A DNA stretch of 64,000 nucleotides from the NCBI GenBank assembly GCA_947477885.1, contig CANJUD010000011.1, positions 1-64,000 on the forward strand, written 5' to 3'. The notes under the pieces are model-generated. The model was not told the DNA's origin. It was given only the letters and a program-made list of their open reading frames with translations, and made no database searches. The first letter of the stretch is position 1. The number at the start of each line of letters is the position of its first letter. The translations under genes and the position numbers were made by a program. Positions 18,135 through 28,048 of this stretch are shown here, piece by piece. Source of the stretch: Bacteroidota bacterium (GTDB lineage Bacteria > Bacteroidota > Bacteroidia > UKL13-3).

Positions 18135-18276
18135 ACCCTGAGCGGAGTCGAAGGGTTGTCCATGGTTGGTGTCCCCACCAACCACAGTCGGTGCCACCCT
18201 GAGCGGAGTCGAAGGGTATCCATGCTTGGTGTCCCCACCAACCACAGTCGGTGCCACCCTGAGCGTAGTCGAAGGG
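18135..18276. repeat. Tandem copies of the CCCTGAGCGGAGTCGAAGGG and GGTTGGTG palindrome repeats
   Basis: ACCCTGAGCG(G/T)AGTCGAAGGGT occurs at 18135, 18196 and 18256 (periods 61 and 60 bp). The first two copies are each followed by TTGGTGTCCCCACCAACCA, a 7-8-bp stem with a CCC-rich loop, and CAGTCGGTGCC. The array fills the gap between fabD and the hydratase gene. On the minus strand the last copy begins directly after the fabD TAA. This unit is a dispersed Bacteroidota intergenic repeat type; too few and too short for CRISPR. Confidence 0.8.
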
Positions 18277-21329: not shown

Positions 21330-21376
21330 ACCCTGAGCCGCCTGCACTGAGCGGCAGTCGAAGTGTCGAAGGGTTA
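21330..21376. repeat. Dispersed CCCTGAG...GTCGAAGGG repeat between nadC and osmC
   Basis: The sequence has the same ends as the 18135 family (ACCCTGAG ... GTCGAAGGGTTA) with an internal duplication (GCACTGAGCGGCAGTCGAAG). On the minus strand the nadC stop TAA runs directly into CCCTTCGAC, exactly as at fabD. Confidence 0.7.
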
Positions 21377-22234
21377 TTTTATGATTTTTAAACTAAGGTC
21401 TAATGCTTTTACTGAATGGGTAAGTGCTCCCATCGATATATAATCAACTCCCGTTTCGGAATAGGAAACAAGATTGCTTAAGGTGATACCGCCCGACGCT
21501 TCAGTTTCGTATTGTTTGTTTATTATAGTAACTGCTTCCTTCAGTTGTGGCAGTTCGAAATTATCGAGCATGATGCGATGGATTCCGCCCGCAGCCATTG
21601 CTTCCTTTACTTCTGCTATGTTGCGTGTTTCTACTTCTATTTGCAAATCCAGATTGTTTTGTTTTAGATATTCTTTGGCTTTTGTAATCGCTTTTGTAAT
21701 ACCTCCTGCTGCATCAATATGATTGTCTTTCAGCATCACCATATCATACAAGCCAAAACGGTGGTTATGGCCGCCACCCATGGTTACTGCCCATTTCTCA
21801 AGCAATCGCATGCCGGGAGTTGTTTTGCGTGTATCAAGTATTTTGGTATGCATATCAGCAATTAATGCAACAGCTTTTTGGGTAGTAGTGGCCACACCAC
21901 TCAATCGTTGCATACAATTCAATAAAAGTCTTTCAGCTTGTAGTATAGATGCTACTGAACCTGCTACCTCAAAAACTATATCGCCATATTTTACTGAACC
22001 TCCATCGTTTATATATACATTCGTTTGCAGCTTATCATCCAATTGTTTCAATATAGTCTTTGCAAGCTCTAAGCCTGCTATTACGCCATCATCTTTAACT
22101 AGTAGTTTTGCTTTACCCTGCAAAGTACTTGGAATACATGAAAGCGTAGAATAATCTCCGGGCCCAATATCCTCAGCCAACGACTGCGATATAAATAATT
22201 GAACCCGCGGGTCTGTATCGAACTGGATTTGCAC
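21374..22234 (-). CDS. nadC: Nicotinate-nucleotide pyrophosphorylase (carboxylating)
   Basis: 286 residues. Quinolinate phosphoribosyltransferase signatures: ERLLLNCMQRLSGVAT, ILDTRKTTPGMR, GGGHNHRFGLYDMVMLKDNH, and MLDNF near the C-terminus. It converts quinolinate and PRPP to nicotinate mononucleotide, the entry to NAD. The 3-hydroxyanthranilate dioxygenase in the same window makes quinolinate from tryptophan, so both steps of that route are represented. The start is GTG; it lies only 4 nt after a -7 box. Confidence 0.95.
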   Translation of the reverse strand: MQIQFDTDPRVQLFISQSLAEDIGPGDYSTLSCIPSTLQGKAKLLVKDDGVIAGLELAKTILKQLDDKLQTNVYINDGGSVKYGDIVFEVAGSVASILQAERLLLNCMQRLSGVATTTQKAVALIADMHTKILDTRKTTPGMRLLEKWAVTMGGGHNHRFGLYDMVMLKDNHIDAAGGITKAITKAKEYLKQNNLDLQIEVETRNIAEVKEAMAAGGIHRIMLDNFELPQLKEAVTIINKQYETEASGGITLSNLVSYSETGVDYISMGALTHSVKALDLSLKIIK

Positions 22235-22238
22235 GATG

Positions 22239-22246
22239 CAAAATTA
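22239..22246 (-). promoter_or_regulatory. -7 element of nadC, leaderless geometry
   Basis: On the minus strand TAATTTTG is followed by CATC and then the nadC GTG. Transcription should start at or within a few bases of the GTG, so the mRNA is probably leaderless. The same geometry occurs at 56205. Confidence 0.5.
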
Positions 22247-22260
22247 ACGGATAAATCTTC

Positions 22261-24084
22261 CTACATTCGCACAAAAAAACATGGTTGGTGCCCACCTGCT
22301 GATTCTATTGCACGATTCCATTTTCCCATAGTATCGCTTGCAAGTTTGTTCTCATATCCCGCCCACTCGTTAGCGGTAAACCCTTGTCCACGTCTTGCCA
22401 TAGCCTCGCTTGTTGAACGCTGCATTTCGGGTGTGAGTGAATAATCTTCTAATTTATCGTTACGGGTTTGATAGGCATTGTAAAGTTCTTTTGCTGATGA
22501 CTTATATTTGGTGCTTTCGTCTGCTTTATTTCGGGCAGAGGTTTCGTTTCCGCTAACATTTGCTTGATTGTTTTTAGTTTGAATGTTGGGTTGCTCATTT
22601 TGTTGTTGTATTTTAGATAGTTCTTCTCCGTGAATAACGCTTCCCGCAATTAGGTCTGTGAAGTCGCCCAATGTCATTTCTGCAAGTTTTACAGACGGAA
22701 TGTTGAGTTTCAGTTTGCCCTTTACGTTACGCCAAAAATCTTTGAGCCATGATAGCAAGCCTTTTTTCTTCTGTTCGGTAAGCAGTTTGCCCTTTTCGCC
22801 TATTGCTTGTGCAAGTGCTTCTTCTGCAATGCCTTCTTTGTCAAGGTGCGGATATTCTTTTTTAACCCTTGCTTCGTATTCTGTGCCTTTGATTAATGCT
22901 TTGCCACGATTGTAGAGTTCGGGATTTGTCTTTTTTATCAGTGGCAGAAATATATGCCCCGCAATTTCATGTATCGGTGTTTCTGTTGTCGCTGCTTTTG
23001 GGTCAATCCAAAGTTTGTAGCTTCCATCGGGTTGAACCTGTACAAAGCCAAGCACTTCGCCTTGGGGAGATTTCATGTACTGTACGTTTGACATATCCCT
23101 TAGTATAGGGTCTATATACGCCACCGTCCCATCTTCTGTTATTAGAGCATTATCGCCTACTATGTCTGCAATTAAAATATCGCCATTGCTAAAAGTACCG
23201 AACTTAAACAGCCTACTTATAAAGTTGGCCTTGAACCCCCTTTTTGCCATATCGTCAGCAACCTCTTTATATGTTGCTGCCCTCTTAGACTTAACAAACG
23301 GTTGCTCTAATATTAGAGAAAAGCTGCCTTTGTATTCGGTAAAGCCAACTATTTTGTAGGATGTGGGCTTTAAATGGATTTCGTGAAGTTTTAATCTATC
23401 GGTAAAACTTATCCAATCTGCATGATAAGCCCCGCTATTTATCTTGGTTACAGTTTTGCCGTCATTATTAAAAAAAACAACTGCTTCGTTGCCTTTTGCG
23501 TTTGGGTCTACTCCTTTTTTGAAGTCTTCAACCCATAGATTGTTATTATTGGCAAATTCTTTTAATGCTTTTTCTTCCTCTGCTTTGTATTTCCCTATCG
23601 ACCAACCTTTCCCGTTTTTTGCGTCCTCTTGACTTGCTCTAAGAACTCCGTCAAGGATATTGGAGACTGATTCTCTAATGCTTTCCGCAGTTTTTCGTTC
23701 TGCTCCATCCCGTATTCGTTTGGTTGAATCTCCTTCTGTTTCATCATTTACAAAATTACTATTATTATTTGAATTATCAACCTGTTTTTTTATATTTTTA
23801 TCGCCATCTATAATTTCCTTGGCTTCTGCATCAGAAACAACTTCTACCTTAACAGTTTTGCCCATTGCTCCTGTAACGGAATGGAACGCTGCTAAAAGAG
23901 CATTTGTGAAACTTTTAACCGTATTTGGTTCTGTTTCAATTATAGGGTTTTTGTCAGCAAGGTCAGTTTTATGTGCTGCTTCGTATGCTGCATCTATTTC
24001 TTGAGGTGTGGAGTTGTCTACTAGGAATGATGCGTGGGCTGTATCTTGTAGTTTTGGGCTTATTTTAGAAAATTCATTGCCCAC
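22261..24084 (-). CDS. Relic of a mobile-element polyvalent protein (kinase-like and HExxH domains)
   Basis: 607 residues, no signal peptide. Residues about 195-327 look like the putative protein-kinase domain of phage and conjugative-element polyvalent proteins: GNEAVVFF, a candidate ATP Lys in KTVTKI, and a catalytic-loop-like GDILIADIVGDNALITEDGT followed by AYIDPI. Residues 372-377 are HEIAGH, a zinc-metallopeptidase motif, with an EGIAEE segment about 45 residues later that could supply the third ligand. The C-terminal 80 residues are helical and polar. It has no relatives nearby and lies between nadC and rpsThx. The reading frame stays open for 18 codons upstream of the GTG start to a TGA, and the C-terminus runs into a GGTTGGTG repeat, so both ends look eroded. 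Exact family needs a search. Confidence 0.7.
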   Translation of the reverse strand: MGNEFSKISPKLQDTAHASFLVDNSTPQEIDAAYEAAHKTDLADKNPIIETEPNTVKSFTNALLAAFHSVTGAMGKTVKVEVVSDAEAKEIIDGDKNIKKQVDNSNNNSNFVNDETEGDSTKRIRDGAERKTAESIRESVSNILDGVLRASQEDAKNGKGWSIGKYKAEEEKALKEFANNNNLWVEDFKKGVDPNAKGNEAVVFFNNDGKTVTKINSGAYHADWISFTDRLKLHEIHLKPTSYKIVGFTEYKGSFSLILEQPFVKSKRAATYKEVADDMAKRGFKANFISRLFKFGTFSNGDILIADIVGDNALITEDGTVAYIDPILRDMSNVQYMKSPQGEVLGFVQVQPDGSYKLWIDPKAATTETPIHEIAGHIFLPLIKKTNPELYNRGKALIKGTEYEARVKKEYPHLDKEGIAEEALAQAIGEKGKLLTEQKKKGLLSWLKDFWRNVKGKLKLNIPSVKLAEMTLGDFTDLIAGSVIHGEELSKIQQQNEQPNIQTKNNQANVSGNETSARNKADESTKYKSSAKELYNAYQTRNDKLEDYSLTPEMQRSTSEAMARRGQGFTANEWAGYENKLASDTMGKWNRAIESAGGHQPCFFVRM

Positions 24085-24282
24085 CTTCTGCTGCCACGCT
24101 TCCTCAGCATTAGCGAGGCCAATGTTACCATCACCATCTCAGCCAATGGCTAATTGCCTACCACCATTACAAGTATTGGCATACAGGCAGGCAAAACAGC
24201 TATAAAAGATGTAGAATTGGTCCAAATACCACAAACAAGCAGCAGGGCTATTTAATTATTTCACAGCTTCCCCATCGCAGCC
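24085..24282. other. Gene-free junction between the polyvalent relic and rpsThx
   Basis: Two unfinished reading frames overlap here. On the minus strand the relic frame continues upstream (DGDGNIGLANAEEAWQQK) to a TGA at 24139-24141 and stays open beyond it. On the plus strand a stretch ending TAA at about 24253 reads like a protein tail (TSIGIQAGKTAIKDVELVQI). Either could be a decayed gene end; I cannot decide. No intact gene is present. Confidence 0.4.
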
Positions 24283-24290
24283 TATATTTG
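24283..24290 (+). promoter_or_regulatory. Candidate -7 element of rpsThx
   Basis: TATATTTG fits TAnnTTTG, 28 nt upstream of the Thx ATG. No ideal -33 TTG. Confidence 0.4.
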
Positions 24291-24318: not shown

Positions 24319-24444
24319 ATGGGCAAAGGCGATAAAAGAAGTAAACGTGGCAAAATTTGGAAACACTCACACGGTGTGTGCCGCTTGAAAAAGAGCTACC
24401 AAATGACCGCGGTCGAAAAAATTGAAGCTGCAAAAAGCAAATAA
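24319..24444 (+). CDS. 30S ribosomal protein Thx
   Basis: A 41-residue basic protein beginning MGKGDKRSKRGKIWKHSHG, the conserved start of bacterial Thx, a small protein of the 30S head. It is longer than Thermus Thx at the C-terminus (VEKIEAAKSK). It has its own promoter and a strong terminator 3 bp after the stop, so it is monocistronic. Confidence 0.8.
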   Translation: MGKGDKRSKRGKIWKHSHGVCRLKKSYQMTAVEKIEAAKSK

Positions 24445-24736: not shown

Positions 24737-26407
24737 ATGGACAGAAGAGATTTTCTCAGCACACTTGCCCCTATCCAAACACCCGGGGTTCAAGAAACCA
24801 CTAGTACCAAACAAACTGCACAACGCACTTCAACAGGATTAACCCAGTACGCAGGTGCTTGGGGTTACGACCAAGCCATACACCTGCTTAGGCGAACTAT
24901 GTTTGGTGCCAATATTAATGATATCAATTACTTTTTGAAAAAGTCTATGTCGGCCTCGGTTGATGATTTGCTTACAGTTCCGACTACGCAGCCCAATCCA
25001 CCTATCAATAATTATAACAGTGGTACCAACGTAGACCCTGATATAACAGCAGGTGCAACATGGGTAAATGGCCCCGATAATCCAAACTTTAATTCCCAGC
25101 GTCGCCAGTCATTCAAATATTGGTGGGCAGGACTCATGATAAACCAAGATAAAAATATACTAGAAAAAATGACTTTGTTTTGGCATAATCATTTCGCAAC
25201 TCAAACTCAAACCACAGGCTCAACAATATTAGCTTATCAAAACAACTTGATGCTAAGGCAAAATGCACTGGGAAATTTTAAAACCATGACAAAAGCAGTA
25301 ACCATTGACCCATGCATGCTCAAATACCTGAACGGCAACCTCAATACCAATAAAGCCCCCGATGAAAACTATGGCCGTGAGTTGCAAGAACTTTTTACTG
25401 TGGGCAAAGGCCCTAATTCGCAATACACCGAGGATGATGTGAAAGCTGCCGCCAAAGTACTCACAGGCTGGCGAGTGAACAATAGTACCTTATCTTCCTA
25501 TTTCGATTCGACAAAGCACGAGACAGCAAACAAGCAATTTTCTGCATTTTATAACAATACCCTTATTACAGGCCAAACTGGAGCCAATGGGGCCAATGAA
25601 GTGGACGATTTGCTCACTATGATATTTAATCAAAACGAAGGGGCATTGTTTATATGTCGTAAACTCTATCGTTGGTTTGTATATTACGATATTGATGCTG
25701 CTACTGAAAGCAATGTTATAGTTCCTATGGCTCAAATATTCCGTCAGAATAATTATGATATAAAACCCGTGCTCGCTGCCTTGTTCAAGAGTGAGCATTT
25801 TTATGATGCAGCCAATATGGGTTGCCTTATTAAAAGCCCATTAGACTTTTGTGTGGGAATGTGTAGAGAGTTCAATATTATTTTCCCCGATGCCACGCAA
25901 TATGCTACCCAGTATTATATGTGGGGGCAAATATGGGGAGCAAGCTACATACAGCAACAAGACCCAGGAGATCCGCCAAATGTTGCTGGATGGCCTGCTT
26001 ATTATCAAGTTCCCAGTTATCATGAACTATGGATAAATAGTGATACCCTGCCAAAACGTAACCAAATAAGCGATTTGATGGTATATAGCGGCATAAAGAA
26101 AAGTGGTTATACGTTAATCATTGATTGTATTGCGGTTGCTCAAACCATGAGCGACCCCACAAACCCCAATACATTGATTGATGACTTGTGCAAGTATTTG
26201 CATATCCTCACTTTGTCAGCCGCCAACAAAGCAACTATCAAAACCAGCACCCTGCTCTCAGGGCAATCAACCGACAGCTACTGGACCAATGCATGGAATG
26301 CTTATTTAGCCAACCCTACAAACAAAACCTTGAAAGACACTGTGAATACAAGGCTCATCCTACTTGTAAAATATTTGATGGACTTATCGGAATATCAACT
26401 TTCATAA
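24737..26407 (+). CDS. DUF1800 family protein
   Basis: 556 residues. Typical DUF1800 features: AIHLLRRTMFGAN near the start, MTLFWHNHFATQ (about 150-161), NYGRELQELFTVG and YTEDDVKAAAKVLTGWRV (about 212-250), KSPLDFCVGMCREF. The first residues MDRRDFL resemble a Tat start, but no hydrophobic stretch follows, so a signal peptide is uncertain. These proteins are almost always encoded next to DUF1501 proteins, as here, and are thought to be exported; biochemical role unknown. The DUF1501 gene follows after 45 bp. Confidence 0.9.
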   Translation: MDRRDFLSTLAPIQTPGVQETTSTKQTAQRTSTGLTQYAGAWGYDQAIHLLRRTMFGANINDINYFLKKSMSASVDDLLTVPTTQPNPPINNYNSGTNVDPDITAGATWVNGPDNPNFNSQRRQSFKYWWAGLMINQDKNILEKMTLFWHNHFATQTQTTGSTILAYQNNLMLRQNALGNFKTMTKAVTIDPCMLKYLNGNLNTNKAPDENYGRELQELFTVGKGPNSQYTEDDVKAAAKVLTGWRVNNSTLSSYFDSTKHETANKQFSAFYNNTLITGQTGANGANEVDDLLTMIFNQNEGALFICRKLYRWFVYYDIDAATESNVIVPMAQIFRQNNYDIKPVLAALFKSEHFYDAANMGCLIKSPLDFCVGMCREFNIIFPDATQYATQYYMWGQIWGASYIQQQDPGDPPNVAGWPAYYQVPSYHELWINSDTLPKRNQISDLMVYSGIKKSGYTLIIDCIAVAQTMSDPTNPNTLIDDLCKYLHILTLSAANKATIKTSTLLSGQSTDSYWTNAWNAYLANPTNKTLKDTVNTRLILLVKYLMDLSEYQLS

Positions 26408-26452
26408 CCAAATTAAATATAATTATACAAACATTAAAATATAGGAACTTAT

Positions 26453-28048
26453 ATGAAACGCAGGGATTTTATAAAAAACACAGCAGCTGTAGCAGTATTG
26501 CCATCACTTATAAACGGTCAAACAGTACAAGCTTTTACCGATTCAAGTTTACTAAGCAGACTGGCGGCCTCATTTGTCGACACAGACCATGTGCTTGTTA
26601 TTGTACAACTTAATGGAGGTAATGATGGATTAAACACCGTCATACCTATAGATCAATATAGTAATTTGGCCAATGCTCGCAACAACATACTTATTGATAG
26701 TAAAAAAGTGCTCGCCCTAACAGGAACATCCTTAACTGGTTTGCACCCATCTATGACCGGTATGAGGGATTTATACAATAATGGAAAGCTTACTATTGTG
26801 CAAGCAGCAGGTTATCCCAACCAAAACTATTCCCACTTCCGCTCATCCGATATTTGGGTAACAGCAGCTGATTATAACCAATCACTTACCAACGGTTGGG
26901 CTGGTCGTTATTTAAGCGAAGAGTTTCCCAACTTCCCCAGCGGATATCCTAATACCAATATGCCCGACCCTTTGGCTATTCAAATAGGTTCAGTGGTATC
27001 AACCGGATTACAAGGACTTACCAATAGTATGGCTATGACTATTAGCGACCCGGCAAATTTCTATGGAATGATAAACGGAACTACTGACCCCACGCCCAAT
27101 ACACATGCTGGAGCGGAACTAGCTTACATAAGAGGCGTATCAGCAAAAACGCAGCAATATTCCACCGTAATAAAAGCGGCAGCCGCAAAGGCTACAAACA
27201 AATCAACCATGTGGCCCACCGCAGGGCAAAACAAATTGGCCGACCAAATGAAAATCGTTTCACAGTTGATAGCTGGTGGATTGAAAACCCGCATATACTG
27301 GGTAAATTTGGGCGGTTTTGATACACATTCAAATCAAGTTGATGCCACTAATGGTAATGATACAGGGACACACGCTAGTTTGCTAGCCGACCTTAGTGAA
27401 GCAATCACTGCATTTATGGATGATTGCAAATTACTCAACACAGCCGACCGTGTGTTAGGAATGACTTTTAGTGAATTTGGCCGACGTATAGTTTCCAATG
27501 CTAGCTCAGGCACGGATCATGGAGCAGCAGCACCTTTGTTCCTTTTTGGGAATAAAGTAAAAAGTGGTCTCGTAGGTAGCAACCCTGCTATACCTGCAAA
27601 TGCAACAGTAAATGATAATGTAGCCATGCAGCACGATTTTAGAACCGTTTACACTTCTATACTTAAAGATTGGTTCTGCCTCAGCGATACTGATACGGAC
27701 ACCGTAATGTTGCAAAAGTTCAATACATTGAATCTAATAAACAGTTCGTGTAACAACAATGCCATTGCGCAGGACATTCAGCGTAACTCGGGTAATATGA
27801 TTATACGCAATTATCCAAACCCTTTTAACTTGGCAACCACAATTGAGTTTATAAGTGCTGGAGGAAATGTACTTATTGAATTAATAAATACCGAAGGCAA
27901 ATTGGTAAAAACCATTACCGACCAAGACTACGCTGCAGGTCAGCACAATATAGAGTTGTCTCGAAATGGGATTGCAGCTGGATTGTATTACATAAAGATG
28001 CAAAACAATTTGAGTACCCAAACTAGAAGCGTAATAGCAACTGACTAA
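26453..28048 (+). CDS. DUF1501 family protein with T9SS sorting domain
   Basis: 531 residues. Twin-arginine signal KRRDFIKNTAAVAVLPSLI at residues 2-20. The central alkaline-phosphatase-superfamily-like DUF1501 part shows VIVQLNGGNDGLNTVIP (about 45-61), YPNQNYSHFRSSDIW, LGGFDTHSNQ and MTFSEFGRRI with GTDHGAAAPLF. The last 75 residues (NYPNPFNLATTIEF ... SVIATD) are a T9SS sorting domain. So a Tat or Sec export step would be followed by T9SS. Partner of the DUF1800 protein upstream. Confidence 0.92.
   Translation: MKRRDFIKNTAAVAVLPSLINGQTVQAFTDSSLLSRLAASFVDTDHVLVIVQLNGGNDGLNTVIPIDQYSNLANARNNILIDSKKVLALTGTSLTGLHPSMTGMRDLYNNGKLTIVQAAGYPNQNYSHFRSSDIWVTAADYNQSLTNGWAGRYLSEEFPNFPSGYPNTNMPDPLAIQIGSVVSTGLQGLTNSMAMTISDPANFYGMINGTTDPTPNTHAGAELAYIRGVSAKTQQYSTVIKAAAAKATNKSTMWPTAGQNKLADQMKIVSQLIAGGLKTRIYWVNLGGFDTHSNQVDATNGNDTGTHASLLADLSEAITAFMDDCKLLNTADRVLGMTFSEFGRRIVSNASSGTDHGAAAPLFLFGNKVKSGLVGSNPAIPANATVNDNVAMQHDFRTVYTSILKDWFCLSDTDTDTVMLQKFNTLNLINSSCNNNAIAQDIQRNSGNMIIRNYPNPFNLATTIEFISAGGNVLIELINTEGKLVKTITDQDYAAGQHNIELSRNGIAAGLYYIKMQNNLSTQTRSVIATD

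Follow-up and report, generated by a model that had tools for sequence, protein, structure and literature searches.

The nadC/thx locus and its open reading frame

The window, that is, the whole stretch of 64,000 nucleotides that was analyzed, contains a minus-strand open reading frame (ORF) between nadC and thx, a position that had been proposed in the first-pass annotation and is borne out by profile matches for both neighbors. The locus comprises the following features:

21374-22234, minus strand: nadC, quinolinate phosphoribosyltransferase (PF01729/PF02749)
22239-22246, minus strand: nadC promoter -7 element TAATTTTG, identical in the same-genus genome G002
22247-24280, no strand: apparently lineage-specific insert of about 2.03 kb in the divergent nadC/thx spacer (flank alignment; absent in L016)
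22261-24084, minus strand: the ORF, a probable polyvalent-protein fragment of 607 aa, with GTG start and TAG stop
22281-22296, plus strand: degenerate partial palindrome copy ATGGTTGGTGCCCACC, overlapping the last codons in the ORF's probably non-native C-terminal tail
24085-24252, plus strand: weak CarboxypepD_reg-like fragment with internal TAA (E=0.013 to 0.03), antisense to the DNA just upstream of the ORF start
24139-24141, minus strand: in-frame TGA bounding the open frame upstream, 18 codons beyond the GTG
24283-24290, plus strand: thx promoter -7 element TATATTTG (TACTTTTG in G002)
24319-24444, plus strand: thx, 30S ribosomal protein Thx (PF17070; coding part 24319-24441)

The ORF at 24084-22261 is real. 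Its open frame of 625 codons is the longest in the 2.03-kb stretch; in 500 first-order (dinucleotide) resamplings of this stretch, the longest open frame averaged 107 codons and never exceeded 222. Judged by host codon usage, both wrong frames are worse than the ORF, whose own score falls toward the lower limit of the window's other genes. The frame is open upstream to the TGA, as had been noted before, and its first in-frame ATG is residue 74. The span originally assigned to the gene, 22261-24282, does contain the ORF, but its upper end takes in non-coding DNA from upstream, about 140 nt of it. On the plus strand, some of this DNA reads as the broken CarboxypepD_reg-like piece, possibly a second gene shard inside the same insert, which we regard as a lead only.

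Searches of genome and viral contigs with the full-length ORF (automatic peptide patterns) found no relative, nor did viral scans in which the kinase, the N-terminal part and the C-terminal part were used one by one, so that the N-terminus and the last 110 residues are without a detected family. PHROGs, NCBIfam and PADLOC searches of the ORF gave nothing significant, and a PDB sequence search yielded no chain at a meaningful score.

The last codons of the ORF pass through ATGGTTGGTGCCCACC into the nadC promoter region, and the C-terminal tail is therefore probably non-native. The earlier claim that the C-terminus ends in a dispersed repeat holds to the extent that these codons overlap a degenerate copy of a genome-wide palindrome; there is no long repeat. 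The palindrome, possibly a REP-like element, is 22 nt long (TGGTTGGTGTCCCCACCAACCA), and its 20-nt core has 24 copies at up to two mismatches in the genome, compared with 0 for the reversed control. Copies in the window lie at 18163, 18223 and 24540, with further ones elsewhere in the genome (G000), and the forward contig strand carries 19 of the 24. At about 18140-18260 the palindrome is interleaved with copies of CCCTGAGCGGAGTCGAAGGGT, another dispersed intergenic repeat. A 13-nt direct repeat near both ends of the ORF, TGCCCACCTnCTG, was set aside, since other repeats in this region reach the same level by chance.

The kinase and zincin domains

Four features were assigned within the ORF, and a fifth, closest to the N-terminus, comes from the structure model:

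22615-23085, minus strand: zincin-like metallopeptidase domain, residues 334-490 (homology)
22819-22821, minus strand: E422, a nearly invariant Glu and probable third zinc ligand, judging by PMC5512222
22954-22971, minus strand: HEIAGH, residues 372-377, HExxxH zinc motif (alignment of homologues)
23098-23586, minus strand: Kinase-PolyVal domain, residues 167-329 (profile match, conserved residues, fold matches)
23764-23946, minus strand: helix-strand-helix, residues 47-107 (secondary structure of the model and zincin fold alignments; without sequence support)

What had been called a candidate kinase core matches the PF18762 (Kinase-PolyVal) profile with 102.3 bits (E=3.6e-29; curated cut-off 27 bits) over positions 1-157 of the 160-position model. 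The ATP-binding Lys (K214), the conserved Gln of the last N-lobe strand (Q261), the catalytic Asp and Asn (D307 and N312) and the metal-binding Asp (D325) are all intact, and they are conserved across phage and stand-alone relatives. A model of the kinase domain only (181 residues) has a mean pLDDT of 75. In structure comparison, all 50 of the matches listed for it are kinase-fold proteins, with minimal C-lobe-poor effector kinases among them, although the best Z of 6.6 is modest and below 8. The model points to a kinase fold without a C-terminal lobe, in agreement with the published description of polyvalent-protein kinases (PMC5512222). A second kinase was not seen elsewhere in this genome.

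Stand-alone Kinase-PolyVal proteins of Bacteroidota (L002-L015) belong to the same kinase family as the ORF, with 23-32% identity and the catalytic residues in common. Unlike the ORF they are single-domain proteins of about 210-270 aa, without zincin and with a different N-terminal helix region. They occur outside large polyvalent proteins in 12 of about 57 same-family genomes and in 2 of the class, and share the N-terminal region LKDELHNIISGKSQV..GAIIQTIASYL.

The HExxH metallopeptidase of the first-pass annotation is, by homology, a zincin domain, but its motif, HEIAGH, is an HExxxH and one residue longer. In nearly all homologues the motif is HExxH (HEFGH, HEYTH, HEFMH). HEI[VL]GH, also an HExxxH, is found in three viral relatives (L088, L090 and L093), which form a supported clade of viral polyvalent zincins. 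The zincin tree sets the window's sequence, whose own placement is weakly supported, apart from this group and needs two changes, suggesting that the extra residue arose more than once. We set aside a reading of HEIAGH as a decay mutation, since HEI[VL]GH is found again among other polyvalent zincins and HExxxH is published; against this, the window's closest zincin relatives have HExxH. An HExxxH variant with a bent helix has already been described for polyvalent-protein zincins (PMC5512222). The M49 dipeptidyl peptidases work with HEXXGH and include HEXXH members in the same family (PMC5805324); dipeptidyl peptidase III, with its hexapeptide HEXXGH zinc motif like the HExxGH of the ORF, shows no detected homology to the ORF's zincin and is a precedent only for a zinc-binding, working HExxGH. 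Given these precedents and the near invariance of E422, the zinc site is plausibly intact.

In the full-length model (mean pLDDT 62.5) the zincin core is confident, with values of about 85-96 over residues 341-440. Compared with the PDB by Foldseek, this model has no match at E up to 0.001. Solved zincin-fold domains, ArdC and MATCAP included, do align over residues 47-490, with about 117-177 aligned residues and low Z values of 3.7-5.9. Structure prediction, which had been proposed as a check, thus gave agreeing matches for both domains, though at modest scores.

The span of these alignments raises the idea that residues 47-107 may complete the zincin, with the kinase nested within the zincin fold. 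Because the Z values are low, and because a splice of residues 1-100 to 330-500 scored 155.3 bits compared with a mean of 155.9 in 200 shuffled controls and so brought no gain, the nesting remains a suggestion. Taken at its strongest, it would make the ORF a host-retained anti-phage protein of two enzymes, a C-lobe-less kinase inside an HExxxH zincin, in which phosphorylation and proteolysis would be physically coupled. We consider this very unlikely, the sole hint of nesting being the zincin fold alignments over residues 47 to 490.

Homologues and the insertion site

The zincin profile gives the ORF a score of about 150 bits. Identity to the best relatives is 39-48%, with tblastn E values, computed within the candidate set, as low as 5e-31; the closest, L041 and L046, are 46-48% identical, and no donor sequence more than 50% identical to the ORF was found. 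The tblastn matches of the zincin in annotated phages are confined to Tenacibaculum phage Gundel_1 and a Leptolyngbya phage, and those in plasmids to a Prevotella plasmid; all lie inside proteins of 2,482-3,234 aa. An alignment-based scan added 77 zincin loci (53 viral and 24 genome), most with ORFs of 2,000-6,500 aa. Nearly all zincin homologues sit within large polyvalent proteins, whether of phages, proviruses or plasmids, a minority being in plasmid or conjugative-type contexts. The closest relatives are phage polyvalent proteins of about 2,500-3,500 aa, and portal or terminase genes adjoin some of them.

Two of these proteins illustrate the setting. The 2,482-aa "structural protein" of phage Gundel_1 (gp074) is encoded near terminase and portal genes within an intact phage structural region. 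It shares the zincin and the helix region after it with the ORF (about 40% over 138 aa), but it has an HEFGH motif and no Kinase-PolyVal match; its model is the nearest viral one to the full-length ORF model (Foldseek E=1.1e-7). A provirus protein of 3,373 aa (G403) combines Kinase-PolyVal, InPase, ART-PolyVal and LPD14/23/38 with the zincin, and its gene adjoins a portal gene (phrog_156, E=2.7e-72). LPD23 comes after the zincin in L046 and, in G403, is found further downstream; the C-terminal region of the window's ORF matches neither protein.

The size of the relatives bears on the possibility that the ORF is a small but complete polyvalent gene that moved whole, rather than truncated, from a mobile element not yet sequenced. 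Two-domain forms are common, polyvalent proteins with two or three domains making up more than 75% of the total (PMC5512222), and some zincin loci have shorter ORFs (L051, 752 aa). Nevertheless, nearly all relatives are giant proteins, there is no in-frame ATG before residue 74, the tail is host-derived and no integrase or other mobile gene is among the neighbors tested, which makes a gene moved whole quite unlikely.

The spacing of nadC and thx in relatives speaks for an insertion. In same-genus G002 the spacer measures about 166-170 bp, unrelated in sequence to the 2.03 kb of the window, and the gene order is kept on both sides (OsmC and methyltransferase region, nadC, thx, DUF1800). Since nadC and thx are nearly contiguous there, the window's own lineage appears to have gained the 2.03-kb insert. 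The empty site is known from this one same-genus genome; G001, also of the genus, ends before thx and so cannot show the site. Among nine nadC loci fetched from relatives, G002 alone, together with this genome, has nadC next to thx, so that nadC/thx synteny cannot root the polarity and the direction of change rests on the absence of the zincin in relatives. In 97 genomes (this one included, about 57 of the same family), matches outside this genome were to the kinase only, and among 395 class genomes one, apart from the present genome, has the zincin. No orthologue conserved intact at this site across many genomes was found.

The flanks also bear on the assembly. The genome is a draft of 25 contigs, and a block of phage reads mistakenly joined into the chromosome could in principle mimic an insertion. 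This is extremely unlikely, as the insert lies well within a 120-kb contig with synteny to G002 continuing on both sides, and there is no jump in composition or codon usage.

The ORF's neighbors encode an acyltransferase, a methyltransferase, OsmC, NadC, Thx, DUF1800 and DUF1501 proteins; unlike intact polyvalent genes, the ORF has no portal, terminase or T4SS genes among them. The DUF1800 and DUF1501 genes are adjacent at 24737-28048, the second with a Por secretion tail, and a DUF1800 gene adjoins thx in G002 as well. A search for the missing phage neighbors elsewhere found no phrog_156 portal in this genome. A genome search with phrog_2 was uninformative, since most control genomes match. 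Together, the contexts of the homologues, the empty site in G002 and the lack of a portal or second kinase elsewhere in the genome support the original reading of a lone polyvalent-protein relic marking a former insertion.

A probable phage remnant and its relation to polyvalent proteins

We consider it likely that the ORF is a recent, truncated piece of a phage polyvalent gene in the nadC/thx spacer, most likely a silent or nearly silent passenger. According to Iyer et al. (2017, PMC5512222), an intact phage packages the giant polyvalent polypeptide and injects it. The zincin clips this polypeptide or host proteins, with zinc on the two HExxxH histidines and a downstream Glu, while early phosphorylation of host proteins during infection is the work of the kinase, which lacks a C-lobe (PMC5512222). 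By analogy with this literature, the domains of the ORF would have served in polypeptide processing or host-protein cleavage and in host-protein phosphorylation. A piece of such a virion-associated gene would have entered the chromosome recently, landing where the nadC and thx promoters diverge, and would have been carried from then on as a silent or nearly silent passenger.

The neutral expectation is that a first nonsense mutation arises after about 0.012 substitutions per site. Flanks in the same-genus comparison are about 74-85% identical, and the long flanks, at about 74-77% nucleotide identity with G002, differ at roughly a quarter of sites, so that the insert should be either young or selected. 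Three observations favor youth: the site is empty in G002, the ORF lacks a promoter match, and its tail derives from the host. No TAnnTTTG element was found upstream of the ORF on its strand, while nadC and thx keep theirs. The passenger reading leans partly on this absent match, which is weak evidence, and the intact frame with all recognized catalytic residues speaks against it in that selection, too, would explain both.

Selection would be at work if the host had kept the ORF as a working two-domain protein, a captured effector directed, for example, against superinfecting phages. Host capture has been proposed as a third genomic context for polyvalent proteins (Iyer et al. 2017, PMC5512222), and the open frame of 625 codons, the presence of kinase catalytic residues and zinc ligands, and a codon usage still within the range of the window genes, though near its low edge, are consistent with it. 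However, no orthologue was found in the relatives searched, there is neither a recognizable promoter nor a match in the defense libraries, and the C-terminal tail is made up of host DNA, namely a repeat and the nadC promoter region. Domestication is possible but unsupported, and we regard a host-kept effector as unlikely.

As a probable phage remnant whose site is empty in one sister genome, the ORF is a clean example in which one shard of a giant phage protein sits in a bacterial chromosome and is still readable as an enzyme-domain gene. Such shards are the raw material proposed for host capture.

The ORF resembles the polyvalent proteins described by Iyer et al. (2017, PMC5512222), in which Kinase-PolyVal and zincin occur on one polypeptide, in the order of the ORF in eight loci (L069, L071, L109, L146, L147, L148, L149 and G403; L069 and L149 lie on the same contig, and L147 and L148 are near-identical). 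Both the HExxxH variant and host-genome remnants have been described for these proteins, as found here, and a polyvalent-protein remnant in a host genome is an already known kind. The differences are in size, setting and architecture. Polyvalent relatives measure 2,400-6,500 aa and the ORF 607 aa; the ORF has no phage neighbors, it carries no LPD, ART or InPase domain, and its kinase and zincin are directly adjacent, with a gap of about 8 residues compared with a few hundred to about 1,100 residues in the eight loci. What is unusual here is this direct adjacency, along with the possible nesting of the two domains, and the addition of an HExxxH zincin that the tree sets apart from the L088/L090/L093 group.
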